Assembly: GCA_913009315.1 (NCBI GenBank)
Contig: CAJVZA010000014.1
Coordinates: forward strand, 1 to 33,358
Direction: 5' to 3'
Length of the DNA stretch: 33,358 bases
From: an uncultured Hippea sp.
Lineage (GTDB): Bacteria; Campylobacterota_A; Desulfurellia; JAADFJ01
Made by a program: the position numbers and the translations under genes. The notes beneath the pieces were generated by a model. The model was given only the letters and a program-made list of their open reading frames with translations. It searched no databases and had not been told where the DNA came from. How positions within the stretch are numbered: position 1 is the first letter of the stretch; each line of letters opens with the position of its first letter. Of this stretch, positions 12,284-33,192 are shown in pieces.

Positions 12284-14404
12284 TTAGGTAACATCAATAA
12301 CTGTTCCGGTGGCATACCAGTGAAGCCATATGAACAGCAGCAAAGTCATTACAATTGCCACAGGCACGAATGAGCGCCACATGAGAGATGGTCTATGTAT
12401 ATTATGCTTTAACACGGAAACAGCCAGAATCAGACTCCAAATAAAGGTAACTCCGAGCAGGATAGCAGCGGCAGGCTGTGTGATATTGAGAAATTCCAGT
12501 GCATCATCTCCGAAGGCAATCAATGCGGTTCCGAATTCCATAGGCAGGAAGATATACCCAAGTTTTGTCAGAGAATCACGGAATTTGATATGTCCGACAA
12601 TTGATACTATGCCGCATAAAGCAAAATATATTACGACTGATACGGCCATAAGTGTAAAAAAAGTCAACGGATACGGCCAGTTCGCCAATATCACGCCCTG
12701 ACGAGCTGCAGCTATATACATTCCGAGAAGCGCAGAAACAAAAATTGCCTCAACGATATGCGGTGATTTTGGTTCCGTAAGTTCCGAACCCGGCAGTCTT
12801 AAACCGATCTTGAGAGCAGATTTTTCTACAGGACAGTTTGTAACGCAAGCCCAGCAGTCCAGGCAGTGACTGTTTGAATTCATTGTACTTGGATTGAGAA
12901 ATGACGGGCATTTAGGAGCCAGGTCGGTTCCATGCAAGCACGGCTTATCTTTGCAAACAGCGCATATATTATGATTGGCTCTTAAAGAGGTGGCGCTAAG
13001 CCGGGTAAGACGCGCAAGCCAGCCCCCGATTGGGCATACATATCGACAAAAAGCCCCCCTGCGGAATAAAGCACTAATCAGAACCGCTATAACCGTGAGT
13101 GCGATAAACATCATAGCACCATAAAATGCAATAGATTGCACCGGATAAATTCGTGTAATAAATGTTATAAAAACAAATGTTATAGGCAGCACCCACTCGG
13201 CATGACTATATGGTTTTGCAGCCTGTTTTGCGGGTTTAAAAATCTTATCCGTAACAGTTCTGCTGATATTAGTAATTAATCCAAGCGGACACAGATTTCC
13301 GCACCAGAATCGTCCCAAAAAAATGCCCGAGAGTGTAAGCAGCGGCAGCCAAACTATCCAGAGCAGAAAGTTAAAAAGATTATTGCCATCTTCGGTATTA
13401 ACGAATTTGCCCAGCTTTATGGGACCTTCATTATTAAACGGACCGACGTTCAGATGAAAAATCGCAACAGCCAAAAGCAGAACGAACACAAAAAACATCA
13501 TAATTCTGATGGCGTTAGTTGTAAACGGCATTCTTATGATTCTGTAAAGCAATCGCTCGTTATATTTGGAGCCTATCGGCAAAAAAGGCTCTCCATACGG
13601 CAAACGATCATTTATGGCAGATTTGTCAAGCCATAGATAAAATACAACTGAAAGATATGAGAAGTAAAAAATAACCTGCAGAATCGTCGGTTTAGCGGCA
13701 TAGCCGATCAGCGCACCAAGCAAACTGCCCATAATGCCTCCGTCGCTCACAAACCGGCTTGTGTCCCACGCCGCTATGGTGCCGGGAAGCAAGCCTCCCG
13801 CCTGAAGGACAAATGTAGCCTTTCCGACAAGCCCTGCGGCAAATATTATCATAATTATGCTCGTGTATTTGAAAAATTTGCTTACATTAAAGCTGTAGAT
13901 TCTTCTGAACATCAGAAATGATATCAGGCTTACCGTTATCAGTCCTATTAGGGCTCCGATAAGTGTGTTAACTGGTGCGGTTACAGCAAGATTGCCCAAG
14001 AACAGGACTGTTTCGACACCCTCACGAAAAACTACAGCAAATGATAACAACATTATTCCAATCACTTTTTTCTTTGAAATTGATAGATCAATCTTTTCCT
14101 GGATTTCACCCTTTATCATTTTTGAATTTTTTGCCATCCAGAATATCATGTATGTGAGAACTGCGGCGGCGGCAATACCGAAAAATCCTTCAAAAATCGC
14201 CGCTTCTGCGCCCTTAAATTCGCTGTCAACTGCCCTAAGAATAAAAGCCAGTCCTAAACTGGCAATAACTCCGCCGAAAGCACCGGCAAAAAGATAACGG
14301 CTCAAATATAATTTATTAATCTTTGCCAAATAGGCATAAATTATTCCTATAACAAGTGCTGCCTCAAGCCCTTCTCTAAATGTTACGATAAAACTTGCAA
14401 ACAA
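12284..14404 (-). CDS. FTR1-family iron permease fused to a NapH/NosR/YccM-like membrane polyferredoxin
   Basis: N-terminal FREGLEAALVIG and FREGVETVLF (two REGLE-type motifs). C-terminal FWCGNLCPLG, CRYVCPIGG, CAVCKDKPC...CP and CLDCWACVTNCP Fe-S motifs between TM segments, one uninterrupted 706-aa frame. Confidence 0.9.
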   Translation of the reverse strand: MFASFIVTFREGLEAALVIGIIYAYLAKINKLYLSRYLFAGAFGGVIASLGLAFILRAVDSEFKGAEAAIFEGFFGIAAAAVLTYMIFWMAKNSKMIKGEIQEKIDLSISKKKVIGIMLLSFAVVFREGVETVLFLGNLAVTAPVNTLIGALIGLITVSLISFLMFRRIYSFNVSKFFKYTSIIMIIFAAGLVGKATFVLQAGGLLPGTIAAWDTSRFVSDGGIMGSLLGALIGYAAKPTILQVIFYFSYLSVVFYLWLDKSAINDRLPYGEPFLPIGSKYNERLLYRIIRMPFTTNAIRIMMFFVFVLLLAVAIFHLNVGPFNNEGPIKLGKFVNTEDGNNLFNFLLWIVWLPLLTLSGIFLGRFWCGNLCPLGLITNISRTVTDKIFKPAKQAAKPYSHAEWVLPITFVFITFITRIYPVQSIAFYGAMMFIALTVIAVLISALFRRGAFCRYVCPIGGWLARLTRLSATSLRANHNICAVCKDKPCLHGTDLAPKCPSFLNPSTMNSNSHCLDCWACVTNCPVEKSALKIGLRLPGSELTEPKSPHIVEAIFVSALLGMYIAAARQGVILANWPYPLTFFTLMAVSVVIYFALCGIVSIVGHIKFRDSLTKLGYIFLPMEFGTALIAFGDDALEFLNITQPAAAILLGVTFIWSLILAVSVLKHNIHRPSLMWRSFVPVAIVMTLLLFIWLHWYATGTVIDVT

Positions 14405-14533
14405 TTAATCCCCTCCTCAACATTATATCGTTCCCTTTTCAATATTGATTACCGATCGGCAGTACACCCATTAACCGATACTTATGTTCATATATGCATA
14501 TAATTGCGAAAAAAAAATTCCTTCATTGCCGTT

Positions 14534-14959
14534 TCATTGTTTATTACGATTTAATCTTTCTTTTACGTGTTTCAGGCCTTCTTCAAACAGATAATTGATA
14601 TGTTTATCATTCAGAGAGTAGTAAGAAATTTTTCCATCCCTGCGATATTTCACTAAATCCAGATTGCGCAAAACTCTCAACTGGTGAGAAACTACAGACT
14701 GACTCATTTTAATATGAGCGGCTATATCATTAACGCATAGTTCTTCTTTCATCAGACAAAAGATTATTTTGGTTCGGGTAACATCGCCTAACACCTTAAA
14801 TGTAACGGCTAACTTCATAAAAACCTCTTCCGGTTCCGCAATACTATTTGTATAACTAACTTTTTGCTCAACCGCTGAGGACATTTTGTATTTGTCTGAT
14901 TTGTTGCTAATGTTTGTCACCGACTGCCTCACTCCTTTTTGTTCTTCTTGTATGAACAT
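14534..14959 (-). CDS. ArsR/SmtB-family metal-responsive repressor
   Basis: ELCVNDIAAHIKMSQSVVSHQLRVLRNLDLVKYRRDGKISYYSLNDKHI wHTH. C-terminal DKHINYLFEEGLKHVKE fits the alpha5 pattern DxHx10HxxE. Confidence 0.93.
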   Translation of the reverse strand: MFIQEEQKGVRQSVTNISNKSDKYKMSSAVEQKVSYTNSIAEPEEVFMKLAVTFKVLGDVTRTKIIFCLMKEELCVNDIAAHIKMSQSVVSHQLRVLRNLDLVKYRRDGKISYYSLNDKHINYLFEEGLKHVKERLNRNKQ

Positions 14960-23476: not shown

Positions 23477-25804
23477 TCACGCTACTTTTATTTCATACAA
23501 ATGTTTCTGAAATCCGATAAACAACGAGCTTATATTTTCCACATCTCCCAATATTCCCTTAGCATCTTCCAACGATTGATATTTCGTTTGAAGTAGAATG
23601 GGTAATTTCTCCCGGTCGAGCTCACTCACTCCTGTTTCCACATATTTACTCAATACAAACTCTATAAACTCTTTTTGTTTATCATTCAGCAATGCAAAAA
23701 TTGCGGCTTTTGCTCTTGTCACCCTTTCTTTTCTTGTTATTGGTTGAATATCACTATTAAACACATATTCCAGTACATCGAATAAATCGCTTTTTTCTGC
23801 ATTTATTAGTTTTTGCAAGGTTATCAATTCTTCTTTTCCAAAACCTGCTTCATCTAATTTTTCAAGTAGTGTTTTTCTCGTTATAGGATTGCTCCAAATT
23901 TCTCGTAACTCATCTTCACTTTTGAAAAAGTTAGGAAGTTCGCCAAACAGATTCTCTAAAAATTCCTGTGCCGAAATTGGTTTACCGTCTGCGCTCCAAA
24001 ACGAAGTGGCAATAATATGTTGTATTTCTCGTTCTTTACCGTCTTTTAGTTTTATTTTTATTTTTGTGAGTCTCTCTTCGGTTTCGTAATTCTTTTCCTT
24101 TTCTTTTACTTCTCCTTTTCTACTTACATCTATTTCATATTCAGCCGGTTCAATTGGTTCTCCGTCCCATTCGGGGTCTAAAAATCGTTGATAAGCTTCT
24201 ACAAAATCATAGATTGTAAAAAATTCTTTTCCATCAAAAAGACGAGTTCCGCGACCTACAATTTGCTTAAACTCAATTATCTGGTTTACAGGTCGCATTA
24301 GAATAATATTGCGGATATTTCTGGCATTAACACCAGTTGAAAGTTTCTGTGAAGTGGTTAAAATTGTCGGGATTGTTTTTTCGTTGTCCTGAAATTTTCT
24401 TAAAAACTGTTCGCCTATCTCTCCATCATTTGCTGTTACACGAACGCAATAGTCTGTGTCTTTGCTTTTTTTGTATTGGTTTACTAAATCCCGAACAGCG
24501 GCTGCGTGGTCTTGTGTGGCACAAAAAACAATTGATTTTTCGTTTTGATTGATTTCGTCCATAAAAATCTGAACACGTTTTGCTTCCCGTTCTTTGATTT
24601 CAATTATTTTGTTAAAATCGGGTTCTTTATAAATTTTACCTTCTTCAATTTCGCCTTCAATTACATCATCATCACTTGTGTAAACATAATCATCAAGGGT
24701 GGTTTTAATTCGCTTTACTTTGAAAGGTGTCAAGAAACCGTCATTAATCCCTTCTTTTAGTGAATAGATATAAACAGGTTCGCCAAAATAAAGGTAGGTA
24801 TCAACATTATCTCTTCGCTTTGGTGTTGCCGTCAAACCTAATTGAACAGCCGGCGAGAAATAGTCCAATATTCCTCTCCAATTTCCCTCGTCATTTGCTC
24901 CGCCTCTGTGACACTCATCAATGATGATAAAATCAAAATAGTCTTTTGGATATCCGCCAAAATACGGCACAGGGTTTCCGTCTTTGTCAGTTCCCGACAT
25001 AAAAGTTTGAAAAATGGTAAAAAAGATGCTGCCGTTTGTAGGCACTTTCCCTTTTTTCTTTATCTCTTTGGGCTTTATGCGAACCATTGCATCATCGGGA
25101 AAGGCTGAAAATGCGTTAAATGCCTGGTCGGCGAGAATATTGCGGTCTGCAAGAAACAAAATTCGTGGTTGTCTTTTCCCGTCACGGTTTAAGTTCCAAC
25201 GAGTCTGAAACAGTTTCCAGGCAATTTGAAAAGCGATTGCGGTTTTTCCCGTTCCTGTGGCAAGTGTAAGCAAAATACGGTCTTTGTTTTGTGCCACTGC
25301 CTCCAATACATTTTTAACGGCAATTTCTTGATAATAACGAGGCCGCCAAGTACCTGATTTATCTTCAAAAGGAATTGAAGCAAATTTATCTCGCCATTCG
25401 TTTTGGTCGCCGTAAACTTCGTTCCATAATTCATCAGGCGAAAGAAAATTATCAACGAGTTTTTCCTCGCCTGTTTTCATACAGATTTGATAATTCTCTT
25501 TTCCGTTTGTAGAATAAGTATAATCTAATCTTAGTTTTTCTGCGTATTGCTTTGCTTGTGCAACCCCTTCGCCAACTTCCAATTCATCGCTTTTGGCTTC
25601 AACAACAGCAAGTTTAATCCCTTTGTAAACCAGAATATAATCGGCAATAAGCGGTTTTTTCCTACCACCGCCGACTTGTATTCTTCCGTCTGTAATTTTG
25701 CAGACATTTCGTTCACGAAGGATTTTTGAACCTTCAACCACGCCCCAACCGGCTTGTTTGAGTTTAGGGTCTATTAATTCTGCTCTTGTTTCGGCTTCGT
25801 TCAT
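23477..25804 (-). CDS. hsdR: Type I restriction endonuclease subunit R (EcoEI-like)
   Basis: N-terminal nuclease-like PLIADYILVYKGIKLAVVEAKS, Walker A LATGTGKTAIAFQIAWKL, DECHRGG, GLTATPKR, QIVGRGTRLFDGKEFFTIYDFV. Confidence 0.93.
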   Translation of the reverse strand: MNEAETRAELIDPKLKQAGWGVVEGSKILRERNVCKITDGRIQVGGGRKKPLIADYILVYKGIKLAVVEAKSDELEVGEGVAQAKQYAEKLRLDYTYSTNGKENYQICMKTGEEKLVDNFLSPDELWNEVYGDQNEWRDKFASIPFEDKSGTWRPRYYQEIAVKNVLEAVAQNKDRILLTLATGTGKTAIAFQIAWKLFQTRWNLNRDGKRQPRILFLADRNILADQAFNAFSAFPDDAMVRIKPKEIKKKGKVPTNGSIFFTIFQTFMSGTDKDGNPVPYFGGYPKDYFDFIIIDECHRGGANDEGNWRGILDYFSPAVQLGLTATPKRRDNVDTYLYFGEPVYIYSLKEGINDGFLTPFKVKRIKTTLDDYVYTSDDDVIEGEIEEGKIYKEPDFNKIIEIKEREAKRVQIFMDEINQNEKSIVFCATQDHAAAVRDLVNQYKKSKDTDYCVRVTANDGEIGEQFLRKFQDNEKTIPTILTTSQKLSTGVNARNIRNIILMRPVNQIIEFKQIVGRGTRLFDGKEFFTIYDFVEAYQRFLDPEWDGEPIEPAEYEIDVSRKGEVKEKEKNYETEERLTKIKIKLKDGKEREIQHIIATSFWSADGKPISAQEFLENLFGELPNFFKSEDELREIWSNPITRKTLLEKLDEAGFGKEELITLQKLINAEKSDLFDVLEYVFNSDIQPITRKERVTRAKAAIFALLNDKQKEFIEFVLSKYVETGVSELDREKLPILLQTKYQSLEDAKGILGDVENISSLFIGFQKHLYEIKVA

Positions 25805-25807
25805 AAT

Positions 25808-26596
25808 TTACACCATCCAAATTTCCTTATTATAAATTGTTTCTGTTTCTTTTATAATATTATTTTCAACAATATTTAATTTATCATAATTCCAATTTTT
25901 GGGATTATTTTCTATATATTCTGAAATCGCATAATACGAATTTTCATCACGAATTATATGTTCCCAATAATTACGTTGCCATAATTTACCATTAAACGAT
26001 TTCCAATTTTTTGTTTTTACACCGTGTATGTATTTAACGGTGGTGATCGATTGAAATGCCCCAACCATATCGCCCAACGTTTTTTTGGTAGGGGCAAACC
26101 CTTGTGGTTGCCCTTTTTCGATTTTAATATCATCACGGTCATTAATATTATTGTCATTTGGGGCGACCACGTCATTTGGGGCGACCACGTCATTTGGGGC
26201 GACCACGTCATTTGGGGCGACCACGTCATTTGGGGCGACCACAAGGGTCGCCCCTACGATTTCCAATATGGCGTGAAAATGGTTTGGCATTATGATGTAT
26301 TTGTGTAATTGTATGTTGGTAAATCGTTGGCGTATTTTTAACCATTCGTTTTTAATTATTATTCCCGCATCATTTAATAACATTTTACCATTTTCAACAT
26401 TCCCAAATAAATGTTCGCGATTTTGTGTGCAAATCGTTATAAAATACAATCCCGCCTGCGAATAATCGTATCCTTTCAAACGGATCGATTTACGATTGGG
26501 AAATTTGTTGTTGGTGGAAGTGGTATTCGTTTGGGCGGATGGTATTTGAGGGCAGACACATAGGTCTGCCCCTACGGGTTTTTGATTACTATTCAT
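25808..26596 (-). CDS. REP-associated tyrosine transposase (RAYT, Y1/IS200-like)
   Basis: YFITICTQNREHLFG, MPNHFHAILEI (HUH), NYWEHIIRDENSYYAISEYIENNPKNW. Confidence 0.92.
   Translation of the reverse strand: MNSNQKPVGADLCVCPQIPSAQTNTTSTNNKFPNRKSIRLKGYDYSQAGLYFITICTQNREHLFGNVENGKMLLNDAGIIIKNEWLKIRQRFTNIQLHKYIIMPNHFHAILEIVGATLVVAPNDVVAPNDVVAPNDVVAPNDVVAPNDNNINDRDDIKIEKGQPQGFAPTKKTLGDMVGAFQSITTVKYIHGVKTKNWKSFNGKLWQRNYWEHIIRDENSYYAISEYIENNPKNWNYDKLNIVENNIIKETETIYNKEIWMV
26086..26114. repeat. REP-like hairpin inside RAYT CDS (GGTAGGGGCAAACCCTTGTGGTTGCCC)
   Basis: GGGCAAACC ... GGTTGCCC arms. Confidence 0.7.
26153..26242. repeat. Five tandem copies of 18-bp GTCATTTGGGGCGACCAC
   Basis: Units start at 26153, 26171, 26189, 26207, 26225; encode (VVAPND)n on the minus strand. 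Confidence 0.97.
26232..26254. repeat. REP-like hairpin GGGGCGACC-ACAAG-GGTCGCCCC inside RAYT CDS
   Basis: Perfect 9-bp arms; last tandem unit supplies one arm. Confidence 0.85.
26550..26572. repeat. REP-like hairpin GGGCAGAC/GTCTGCCC at the 5' end of RAYT CDS
   Basis: Perfect 8-bp arms followed by CCTACGGG. Confidence 0.8.
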
Positions 26597-27009
26597 AATT
26601 CCCCGTTAAATACCTTTTGCAATATCGATTTCTTCAATTCTTCCAAATCCTCAATTTTATTTTGATAAATTGCTTCCAATTTTTTGGTTTGCTCCTGCAA
26701 TACGTCCAATTGGGCAACTATGCGTTTTTGTTCGGGTAGTGGGGGGATGGGGATTTGGATAACTTTTGAATTACCCTGATTTAATTTTGGAACGGTCATT
26801 CCTGAAACATAATCAGATAAGTCACTATGATTTAAATAATTTACAATCCACTCATCTATTAAAATACTTCTAGAGATCAAGCCGGCTGACCCCTTGATTT
26901 TTGGTTCTAGCTCAAAAAGTTGTGTGTTAAGTTTGTCACTCATTGAAAGGATCCTTCTGTCTGTTAGTTGTTGCTGCGTTCTCGACACGTTACTCGTGTA
27001 ACACTGCAC
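26593..27009 (-). pseudogene. hsdS: Type I restriction specificity subunit HsdS, C-terminal remnant
   Basis: GLISRSILIDEWIVNYLNHSDLSDYVSGMTVPKLNQGNSKVIQIPIPPLPEQKRIVAQLDVLQEQTKKLE; lacks the N-terminal target recognition domain. Confidence 0.85.
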
Positions 27010-30132: not shown

Positions 30133-30160
30133 TTGACAACGGACGATTTACACTTATATT
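30133..30160 (+). promoter_or_regulatory. Promoter of the ArsR/Met-rich operon
   Basis: TTGACA (30133-30138), 16-nt spacer, TATATT (30155-30160). Confidence 0.6.
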
Positions 30161-30186
30161 ACTATATAAATATCCATTTATGTAAT
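30158..30186. promoter_or_regulatory. Palindromic candidate ArsR operator overlapping the -10 element
   Basis: ATTAC(TAT)ATAAAT-ATCC-ATTTATGTAAT: inner arms ATAAAT/ATTTAT and outer arms ATTAC/GTAAT with an asymmetric 3-nt insertion. Confidence 0.5.
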
Positions 30187-30201
30187 GATATGGAGGGTAC
30201 G

Positions 30202-30597
30202 ATGAATATATTTTATGAAGCGATTGCCGCTTTTTACAAAGTTCTTTCAGATAAAAACCGTTTGATTATACTGTTTAAACTTGCCGGAGGGCAGAAGTCT
30301 GTTTCACAGATAATAGATGAAACAAAACTTTCCCAACCGCTGGTTTCTCATCATCTGAAAGAGCTGAAAAACAGTCTGCTTGTAAAAACGGAAAGGCGCG
30401 GCCCGTTTGTTTTTTGTGAACTTGCCGAACCGGCATTGACTGATTTCATCAGGCTTACAAATCAGCTTTTGTTTGAACTAAAGGAGAAAAACAGAAAGCC
30501 GCTTCCGAAAGGTGAAGATTTTGCAATGCCCTTTAACGAGATGATGAAGAATATGCTTGAGATAAGAAATAATTTTAGAAGGAGGAATGGAGAATGA
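30202..30597 (+). CDS. ArsR-family transcriptional regulator
   Basis: FYKVLSDKNRLIILFKLAGGQKSVSQIIDETKLSQPLVSHHLKELKNSLLVKTERRGPFVFCEL; ATG 30202 preceded by GGAGGG. Confidence 0.92.
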   Translation: MNIFYEAIAAFYKVLSDKNRLIILFKLAGGQKSVSQIIDETKLSQPLVSHHLKELKNSLLVKTERRGPFVFCELAEPALTDFIRLTNQLLFELKEKNRKPLPKGEDFAMPFNEMMKNMLEIRNNFRRRNGE

Positions 30598-31019
30598 TGA
30601 AAAAAATGATGGGAAATGGTATGCCAATGATGGGAATGATGAGAAAGATGATGGGAGATTCGGAAGATTTCAATCCGATGAAGATGTGTAAAACGATGAT
30701 GTCAACTATGCAAAAGGTTTCAGAAATTGCCTTTTATGCGACCCCTGAGATACGAGGTATGTTTGAGGAGTGGACTGAAAGCGTAGAGTCAGAGATATAT
30801 CAGTTTATCAGCGATAAGGAAAAGATAGACCGCAAAGAGATTGCCGGGCATTTTAAAATATCTGAAAATGCCGCTCAATTTTTCCTGAATCATCTTGCCG
30901 CTTCAGGAAAGATTAAGGCAGACTTTTCGGATAAAGTTTCAGACAAGGATGCGGGGACCGAGACAAAAAAAGATACGGCAAAAAATCCTAAATCCGATAC
31001 CGGAAGATGTAACTGCTGA
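30594..31019 (+). CDS. Methionine-rich protein with winged-helix-like middle region and Cys tail
   Basis: 16 Met in the first 39 residues (MMKKMMGNGMPMMGMMRKMM...MKMCKTMM), then IYQFISDKEKIDRKEIAGHFKISENAAQFFLNHLAASGKIKADF; ends RCNC. Overlaps arsR stop (ATGA). Confidence 0.85.
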   Translation: MMKKMMGNGMPMMGMMRKMMGDSEDFNPMKMCKTMMSTMQKVSEIAFYATPEIRGMFEEWTESVESEIYQFISDKEKIDRKEIAGHFKISENAAQFFLNHLAASGKIKADFSDKVSDKDAGTETKKDTAKNPKSDTGRCNC

Positions 31020-31061
31020 TAATAATTGTTTGAGTATATAAATTAAACAGGAGATATTGAT

Positions 31062-31325
31062 ATGAACAAAATGATGAGTTCAATGATGGATAAGATGATG
31101 AAACCTGAAGATATGCCTGAAATGATGAATTCAATGATGGATAAGATGTTTAATAAAATGTCAGCAAAAGATCGCCTCGATTTTGTATCAACGATGATGC
31201 CTAAATGCCTGAACATGATTTTTTCAGAGCTTGACTCTGATGAAAAGCATGATTTGGCCAAAGGGATGATAGAAAAGATGATCTCCATATTCAAGGATCA
31301 GCTGAAAACGGAAGCGGATAAGTGA
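31062..31325 (+). CDS. Small methionine-rich protein
   Basis: 14 Met in the first 33 residues; internal 27-bp direct repeat (31071-31097 / 31122-31148); RBS caggaga upstream. Confidence 0.82.
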   Translation: MNKMMSSMMDKMMKPEDMPEMMNSMMDKMFNKMSAKDRLDFVSTMMPKCLNMIFSELDSDEKHDLAKGMIEKMISIFKDQLKTEADK

Positions 31326-31374
31326 GCTTGTTTCATCTTTTAATTAGCAGATATTAGAACAAAGGAGATTAAAA

Positions 31375-31620
31375 ATGGGGCCAGGATATTTTTGGATGGG
31401 TGGTATGTGGATATTTCCCATAATTATGATTGTTGTAATGCTGATTGTTGTTTACCTTATATTCGGACATGGAACCATCAGGCCGCCTTGGTATTATTAT
31501 GATCAATATCCTGGTACCCCAAAGAATTCCGAATCTGCGTTGGATATATTAAAAAAGCGCTATGCCAAAGGCGAAATTACGAAGGAAGAATTCAAGCAAA
31601 TGAAAGGAGACATTGCTTGA
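31375..31620 (+). CDS. SHOCT-domain single-pass membrane protein
   Basis: Hydrophobic segment WIFPIIMIVVMLIVVYLIFG, then SALDILKKRYAKGEITKEEFKQMKGDI (SHOCT); RBS aaaggag. Confidence 0.88.
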   Translation: MGPGYFWMGGMWIFPIIMIVVMLIVVYLIFGHGTIRPPWYYYDQYPGTPKNSESALDILKKRYAKGEITKEEFKQMKGDIA

Positions 31621-31737: not shown

Positions 31738-31893
31738 GGAATGCGAAGCATATTTCACGGAGCAAAGACACTGTAGAGTTACAGGATTGAGATGCGTATC
31801 ATGTCTTTGAGCTGTTTCCCGAACTGAGCTTTCTTTCTTCAAAACTTCAATTGTAATCTTTGATTTAAATTCTTTGGAGTGTTTTTCTCCATA
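31738..31893 (-). pseudogene. IS3-type OrfA transposase remnant
   Basis: Minus-strand GEKHSKEFKSKITIEVLKKESSVRETAQRHDTHLNPVTLQ... resembles HTH_Tnp_1; no complete OrfA/OrfB. Confidence 0.55.
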
Positions 31894-32028
31894 ATGATTT
31901 CCTCCTTGGTTTTACCTTGCCAGGGCAAATTGTTTGAATTGTCAAATAAAAGGAGATTGAAGCCGTCTCATACTATGGATATTTTATTTTTCATCGGTAT
32001 GGGGAAAGTGTCTTCTGCTTTTATGTGA

Positions 32029-32246: not shown

Positions 32247-33192
32247 TTAAAAATCAAGAGGGCTTTTTATATTGTCTTTATTTAGCTCTTTTATAATATG
32301 AACATAAATCATGGTTGTGCTGATATCTTTATGTCCCAGTAATTCTTGAATTGTTCTTATATCAATGCCGTTTTGCAACAGATGCGTTGCATAGGAATGT
32401 CGGAATGTATGAGAAGTAATCTTTTTTCAATCTTTGATTTATTAGCTGCAGCCTTGAGATTTCTTGCGAATGTGCTTGCTAAAACATGGTATCTCATAAT
32501 TTTTCCGGTTACCGGGTCTTTGGATAGTTTTTTCATGGGAAAAAGAAATTGCCATTTGAATTCTTTGTTTGCATTTGGGTATTTTCTCTCAAGCGCTTGG
32601 GGCAGATGAATTTCTCCGAATCCTTTTGATAAATCATTTTGATGTATTTTTCTTACTTCTTTAATATGTATTTTTAGCTCATCTTTTATTCTTTGAGGCA
32701 AAGGGACAACTCTGTCTTTTTGGCTTTTAGAATCAAAAATATAAACATTGTCAAAACCAAAATCGATGTCTTTTATTCTTAAATTTAAAAGTTCATTTAG
32801 CCTGAGACCGCAGCCGTATAGCAACTGAAGCATAAGCTTATAAATTCCATTCATATAATAAATTATTTGCTTTACCTCACCTTTGGTTAAAACAACAGGA
32901 ACATGCTCTTTTCTTTTTGCTCTTAAAGCAGAGATATTTTGGTCTTTTAACGAAATGCCAAGAACTTTTTCATATAGAAACAGAATAGCATTGAAAGCTT
33001 GATTTTGAGTGGAAGAAGCAACTTTTTATCTACTGCAAGATGCGTTAAGAACGCTTCTATCTGAGCTTTGCCAAGTTTGCTCGGATGCTTTTTGTTATGA
33101 AATAAAATAAAGTTTTTAATCCAGTTAATGTAAGTTATTTCGGTTTTATAACTGTAATGCTTCAATCTTAATTTTTCCCGAACAATATCCAA
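32247..33192 (-). pseudogene. intI: Integron-type tyrosine recombinase (IntI-like) with two frame breaks
   Basis: LDIVREKLRLKHYSYKTEITYINWIKNFILFHNKKHP; YGCGLRLNELLNLRIKDID; IntI-specific region GFGEIHLPQALERKYPNANKEFKWQFLFP; in another frame [42 protein letters not shown]. Confidence 0.88.

Follow-up and report, generated by a model that had tools for sequence, protein, structure and literature searches.

Tso, the 'three selenoprotein operon' described by Haft & Tolstoy (2025, via PMC13188914), includes genes for TsoA (NF045695), the 'LULAXC motif selenoprotein', and for an ArsR-type regulator, TsoR (NF045707). Among proteins with many sulfur side chains, Csp3 (PMC5171941) is small, helical and cytosolic, and holds Cu(I) with Cys residues inside a four-helix bundle. 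Proteins of the SilE/CusF type are periplasmic, and their short Met motifs are believed to be Ag(I)/Cu(I) ligands; SilE, a 'molecular sponge' (PMC5008109), uses His and Met.

The operon analysed here (Table 1) lies in a 33,358-nt stretch of DNA, the window; MetA and MetB are names coined here for its first and second Met-rich protein. It has in common with Tso an ArsR gene immediately upstream of the A gene, a homologous C-terminal domain in the A protein (these two being the membership features that MetA shares with TsoA) and the same operator type. Unlike Tso, MetA has neither Sec nor LULAXC, and its N-terminal domain is replaced by Met-rich helices. The window lacks genes for the selenoproteins TsoB and TsoC, and the operon adds MetB and a SHOCT membrane protein, with which it ends. 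The homology of MetA to TsoA and of ArsR to TsoR makes the operon a Met-rich relative of Tso that lacks Sec, and not an isolated invention; judged by its sequence, it is a sister of the Tso system and not a member.

Table 1. Features of the Met-rich operon (positions in the window)
Feature	Position	Strand	Basis or remark
Sigma70-type promoter, TTGACA-16-TATATT	30133..30160	+	11/12 consensus positions
Operator palindrome ATATTACTATATAAAT-CCAT-ATTTATGTAATGATAT, core 30164-30183 ATATAAATATCCATTTATGT	30156..30191	.	Overlaps -10
arsR, ArsR/SmtB-type regulator with Met-rich C-terminal tail FAMPFNEMMKNML	30202..30597	+	PF01022, 1.6e-14
MetA, Met-rich N-terminus and winged-helix-like C-terminal domain, no Sec	30594..31019	+	TsoA homology, FeoC match
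MetB, 87 aa, 22% Met, all-helical (model)	31062..31325	+	Composition, AlphaFold2
Single-TM SHOCT protein, Met/Trp/Phe-rich N-terminus	31375..31620	+	PF09851, 7.1e-10

The set of four genes is as described in the initial annotation. Its reading frames stand, while the position 30133 noted there is that of the -35 box and the best start of arsR is the ATG at 30202, preceded by GGAGG at 30192-30196. The metA ATG overlaps the arsR TGA (ATGA). Counts of 16 Met in the first 39 residues of MetA and 14 in the first 33 of MetB proved exact. With 12.1% and 21.8% Met, MetA and MetB rank as the top two among window ORFs of at least 60 aa, the median being 1.8% in 1720 ORFs of at least 80 aa from the loci collected here. 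In MetA the Met-richness is limited to the N-terminal ~40 residues, the remainder being a conserved winged-helix-like domain. By sequence inspection neither Met-rich protein carries a signal peptide, as had been claimed, and the N-termini of relatives are similar; MetA and MetB thus appear to be cytosolic. Genes for a metal pump, a methyltransferase, a rhodanese or a DsrE protein are absent from the operon.

Residues 24-102 of MetA match TsoA NF045695 (53.7 bits, 2.7e-14) at profile positions 63-141 only, under the curated cut-off of 170 bits over the whole protein. In place of the LULAXC motif with Sec, MetA has NPMKMCKTM, with no in-frame TGA. The best NCBIfam match of the window ArsR is TsoR NF045707 (99.5 bits, below the cut-off of 115), followed by a general metalloregulator model (68.7 bits). 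Since both score below curated cut-offs, the two proteins were filed as neither TsoA nor TsoR. MetA has the traits of a Met-rich MetA family, defined in this analysis from alignments and neighbours: a Pro-Met-x-Met-Cys-type motif within a Met-rich N-terminus, an ATPE..FEEW...KIS core and an ArsR or metal-sensor neighbour. Its C-terminal part matches Pfam FeoC (PF09012, 25.4 bits, cut-off 21, 1.6e-5), and HTH_24 is matched in the same domain of a relative (L059, 8.1e-5). A Foldseek search with MetA, whose AlphaFold confidence is low (62.6), found nothing below E 0.001, winged-helix structures being matched without significance. In a C-domain tree of only 77 columns, where the window has a long end branch, canonical TsoA (19 rows) was separated with support of 100/99 from a clade that contains the window together with every Met-rich member (20 rows). 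This clade also includes three Sec-containing intermediates and a long-branch TsoA (L041).

The promoter and the palindrome over its -10 were both confirmed. The promoter is the best-scoring of the region, where 7 promoter-like sites were found in total and 6.1 are expected by chance. The palindrome is imperfect, spanning 36 bp with 16-nt arms that are 81% complementary. An upstream palindrome ATATAAA-N6-TTTATAT, allowing up to 2 mismatches, precedes 10 of 20 TsoR-type genes, each site at p ≤ 0.003 against shuffles. The core of the window operator has one mismatch to it and is the sole match in 33 kb (0.17 expected). In Met-rich Deltaproteobacterial and Rokubacterial members the ArsR sites read TATATGAG-N6-CTCATATA (8/9 at ≤ 2 mismatches, L007 at 3). 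The recognition helix tracks the operator, QPLVSHHL occurring with ATATAAA sites and QTLVSFHL with ATATGAG sites.

The window ArsR resembles the ArsR/SmtB soft-metal sensors in fold and in having its operator over the promoter of its own operon. Unlike them, on inspection it lacks both the classical alpha-3 ELCVCDLC-type site, alpha-3 reading SVSQIIDETKLS, and the alpha-5 DxHx10HxxE-type site; its single Cys is in the wing region (FVFCEL), and it has a Met tail instead. C-terminal Met/Cys tails such as WPPWKMMCRMM and CPPMRFMRKWM are found on other ArsRs beside Met-rich MetA. At least two Met are present in the tails of 10/12 ArsRs paired with Met-rich MetA compared with 0/22 with TsoA-type partners (Fisher 5e-7, not corrected for kinship), the exceptions being L006 and L009, where a different, tail-less ArsR lies beside Met-rich MetA. 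These tails hint that sensing takes place at a site other than the classical ArsR ones. Because the core of the window ArsR clusters with TsoR, apart from the tailed ArsRs (support only 90/55), its tail could be an independent acquisition or serve some other purpose.

No MetA relative was found among 24 other genomes of the host's small phylum, or in viral contigs, phages and PDB sequences. A single-sequence scan of genome contigs gave none either, probably because its patterns were over-strict. Scanning the contigs with the C-domain alignment yielded 15 MetA loci, from Deltaproteobacteria, one further bacterium, Rokubacteria, Methylomirabilis, an FCB-group bacterium, Halomonas and relatives of Zoogloea/Thauera/Accumulibacter; all have a Met-rich N-terminus, which is short in L005. 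A relative is also carried on a Thauera plasmid, and overall Met-rich MetA homologues occur in at least six unrelated lineages. In the phylum to which the Deltaproteobacterial locus belongs, 51/395 genomes had a family match, and in two other phyla 1/132 and 1/9 genomes; this patchy distribution outside suggests horizontal transfer.

Four classes were seen within the 51 genomes: canonical TsoA (TGA in LULAEC), intermediates, and two kinds of Met-rich protein, one lacking Sec and the other having a TGA in frame. Those of the latter kind ('MEEKGCGPGMGMEMMKKMMEG...MVERUMQMCEQM'; L059, L060 and L061) come from one Deltaproteobacterial group, and their TGA stands where TsoA has Sec. A strong hairpin lies ~20 nt past the TGA in L059 (z -2.8) and L060 (z -2.5), and the L061 sequence after the TGA is identical to that of L060. 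SelB is encoded in G327 and G285, genomes of this group. As SelB is over its cut-off in 0/25 genomes of the window host's phylum, a Sec-free MetA is the form expected there.

The initial annotation had proposed conserved synteny as a check, and ArsR-MetA-SHOCT does recur in unrelated genomes. A same-strand ArsR gene is upstream of MetA in 11/11 Met-rich relatives with readable ArsR-side DNA, either directly (L005, L006, L007, L009, L058, L062-L064) or one gene off, with a VTT-domain protein between (L059-L061); L008, whose DNA ends too early, is outside this count. A homologue of the window SHOCT protein follows MetA in L009 (3.3e-25), L058, L059, L060 and L061. The operon is real and conserved and not due to chance, and the window gene order is one version of a recurring module.

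Genes for metal(loid) handling are among the neighbours of the relatives. In Halomonas (L018/L019) a SHOCT homologue is followed by a methyltransferase and then MetA; in L018 these genes are preceded by a disrupted ArsR frame and a gene for a CopA-type copper ATPase (CopA-type 702 bits, TIGR01511 620 bits). A methyltransferase also accompanies MetA in L005. In Zoogloea/Thauera a Zn/Cd-type ATPase and CadR-PbrR (168.8 bits) are near MetA, and in Zoogloea L012 CadR-PbrR and MetA occur with a frame resembling a Thauera GDCCVxC gene. L063 has a divergent PadR-like gene (by eye) and an ArsP_1 permease, and L064 a PadR-like gene (by eye) and a heavy-metal P-type ATPase. In L059 the gene next after that for the SHOCT protein encodes an ArsM/DUF2284 double selenoprotein (L059:7471-8655, 582.9 bits, cut-off 575). 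Canonical TsoA genes have rhodanese/DsbD-type and DsrE-type proteins as neighbours (by eye).

Three further observations concern these neighbourhoods. An ArsM/DUF2284 double selenoprotein is likewise found behind the SHOCT gene in L060 and L061. In L012 an apparently exported, very Met-rich protein of 170 aa without family match (L012:4665-5177, - strand) is encoded between the Zn/Cd-type P-type ATPase and the divergent CadR-MetA; the ATPase gene, too, is on the strand opposite to MetA. Short DsrE-like proteins (by eye) follow canonical or intermediate TsoA genes in L065, L072 and L073, hinting at sulfur-relay chemistry in the Sec-containing branch.

MetB is rare. One relative was found in the 395 genomes (L078, 35%, 1.4e-5), which is also Met-rich, and none in plasmids. 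AlphaFold2 models MetB from its single sequence as four helices (pLDDT 84), with Met residues on one face of the first two (p 0.006-0.02) and a single Cys in the protein. Considered as a TsoA N-terminal domain that had split off, MetB scored 21.1 bits (top score of 5000 shuffles, 12.2), compared with 19.2 for an ArsR ORF and only 8.9 for its relative in L078. MetA and MetB are like Csp3 in being small, helical, apparently cytosolic proteins with many sulfur side chains, but theirs are Met thioethers with one to few Cys. Foldseek revealed no structural match of either protein to a Csp3-type bundle, and with MetB no match below E 1.7. Short Met motifs are shared with the SilE/CusF type, from which MetA and MetB differ in their cytosolic appearance and ArsR control. 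In L078 (1067-1722), a gene for a small membrane protein whose C-terminal tail is rich in Met directly precedes that for the MetB-like Met/Cys-rich protein (114 aa), without ArsR; this pair is possibly a second kind of Met-rich module.

The operon is best read, with a probability of roughly 0.55, as a Sec-free, Met-rich TsoR-TsoA relative that acts as a cytosolic soft-metal trap, and in its working the module is probably akin to a soft-metal buffer equipped with a dedicated sensor. This reading is reasonable because the synteny recurs and relatives lie beside CopA- and Zn/Cd-type ATPases, ArsP-type permeases and CadR-type regulators. A soft-metal sequestration module had been suggested in the initial annotation; that part is strengthened by the recurring synteny and metal-type neighbours, although the homology of MetA and ArsR to TsoA and TsoR was missed. 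The TsoR-type ArsR would sit on the operator over the -10 and repress its own operon. The repressor would be released when thioethers, those of the ArsR Met tail included, bind a soft ligand, for which Cu(I) and Ag(I) are the likeliest candidates. Clusters made up of thioethers alone bind Cu(I) and Ag(I) in preference to As(III). The Met-rich N-terminal helices of MetA would bind metal, as relatives could through Met plus Sec or Cys, and its winged-helix-like domain may be an interaction module. MetB would add further Met-lined helices. From its conserved place in the neighbourhood, the SHOCT protein is a candidate membrane dock, where the load may be held or passed on. Copper is suggested directly by the Halomonas loci only, the other loci pointing to Zn/Cd/Hg/As families. 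Counted against a metal trap are ArsM/DUF2284, which points to arsenic or organometals, and the TsoA neighbours, which point to sulfur/selenium chemistry and not to copper. Also counted are the tail-less ArsRs of L006 and L009, the grouping of the window ArsR with TsoR, the lack of a pump in the operon and the low model confidence of MetA.

An alternative, rather unlikely but the best of the competing explanations, is that the module acts on reactive species, whether of sulfur, selenium or organometal(loid) nature, as Tso may, with Met replacing Sec as nucleophile or carrier. The homology to TsoA and TsoR is in keeping with it, as are the rhodanese/DsbD-type and DsrE-type neighbours in TsoA operons, the ArsM/DUF2284 double selenoprotein adjoining Met-rich Sec members and the methyltransferase in L005 and Halomonas. 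However, the window operon has none of the methyltransferase, rhodanese or DsrE genes, and the Halomonas and Zoogloea copies adjoin metal ATPases. The one Cys of the window ArsR precludes a dithiol switch of the BigR/SqrR kind, and thioethers are poor As(III) ligands and poorer nucleophiles than selenols.

It is very unlikely that the Met-rich regions are oxidant sinks, whose surface Met would be oxidised and then recycled by methionine sulfoxide reductases, even though the extreme Met content of MetA and MetB would suit this. MrpX-type proteins, the model for such scavengers, are periplasmic, act on hypochlorite and are controlled by an ECF sigma factor and not by ArsR, in contrast to the operon in the window. 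PMC8315932 and PMC5748585 mention MrpX and Met-rich proteins in connection with hypochlorite. An msr gene was noticed neither in the operon nor among the neighbours of the relatives examined, and the conserved Cys/Sec by the Met motif and the metal-pump neighbours fit metal better. Equally improbable is a role for MetA mainly as a DNA- or protein-binding co-regulator, a FeoC-like winged helix whose Met helices offer a flexible hydrophobic surface for docking, like the M domain of SRP54, which uses Met bristles for hydrophobic binding: the FeoC and HTH_24 matches favour it, but Foldseek gave MetA no significant hit, a dedicated ArsR/MerR nearly always beside MetA makes a second DNA-binding regulator less needed, and docking leaves the Met/Cys tail of ArsR unexplained.

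If the soft-metal trap is extended to all the relatives, they may tentatively, at somewhat less than even odds, be seen as a widespread, undescribed family of cytosolic Met-rich scavengers built on the TsoA scaffold. Met thioethers would have replaced Sec, one lineage keeping both, and the ArsRs would have gained matching tails; sensor and sponge would then share the same ligand chemistry. Were Cu(I) or Ag(I) bound, the result would be a metal buffer that is cytosolic and based on thioethers, unlike both the well-known Met-rich metal proteins, which are periplasmic, and the known cytosolic copper stores, which use Cys. The Tso selenoprotein system, whose function is unknown, is here linked to a Sec-free family beside metal pumps, a link that offers a direct experimental handle on the role of TsoA-type proteins; standard laboratory strains of E. 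coli are able to express the Sec-free Met-rich versions.

The CDF and MOSC genes, which the initial annotation had called consistent though no proof, carry little weight and were rejected as parts of the system, since they encode ordinary ZitB-like and YiiM-like proteins and were not seen beside relatives. All that lies downstream of the operon is a remnant resembling an IS and a disrupted integrase gene, which together hint at a mobile-DNA edge beside it. The remnant is a degenerate frame (31745-31905, - strand; EKHSKEFKSKITIEVLKKESSVRETAQRHDTHLNPV) resembling the start of an IS3-type transposase OrfA. The integrase gene (32290-33192, - strand), for a tyrosine recombinase of the integron-integrase type, is split by frameshifts into three frames at the contig end and matches TIGR02249 in two pieces. 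Type I restriction-modification genes, comprising an R subunit and specificity-domain pieces (PF08463, PF01420), occupy 23477-27009 (- strand). Elsewhere in the window (12284-14959, - strand), a second ArsR-type gene (14534-14959, alpha-3 ELCVND) is directly before that for a 706-aa protein in which an FTR1/EfeU iron permease is fused to a NapH-like ferredoxin domain; such a metal-related pair is unusual.
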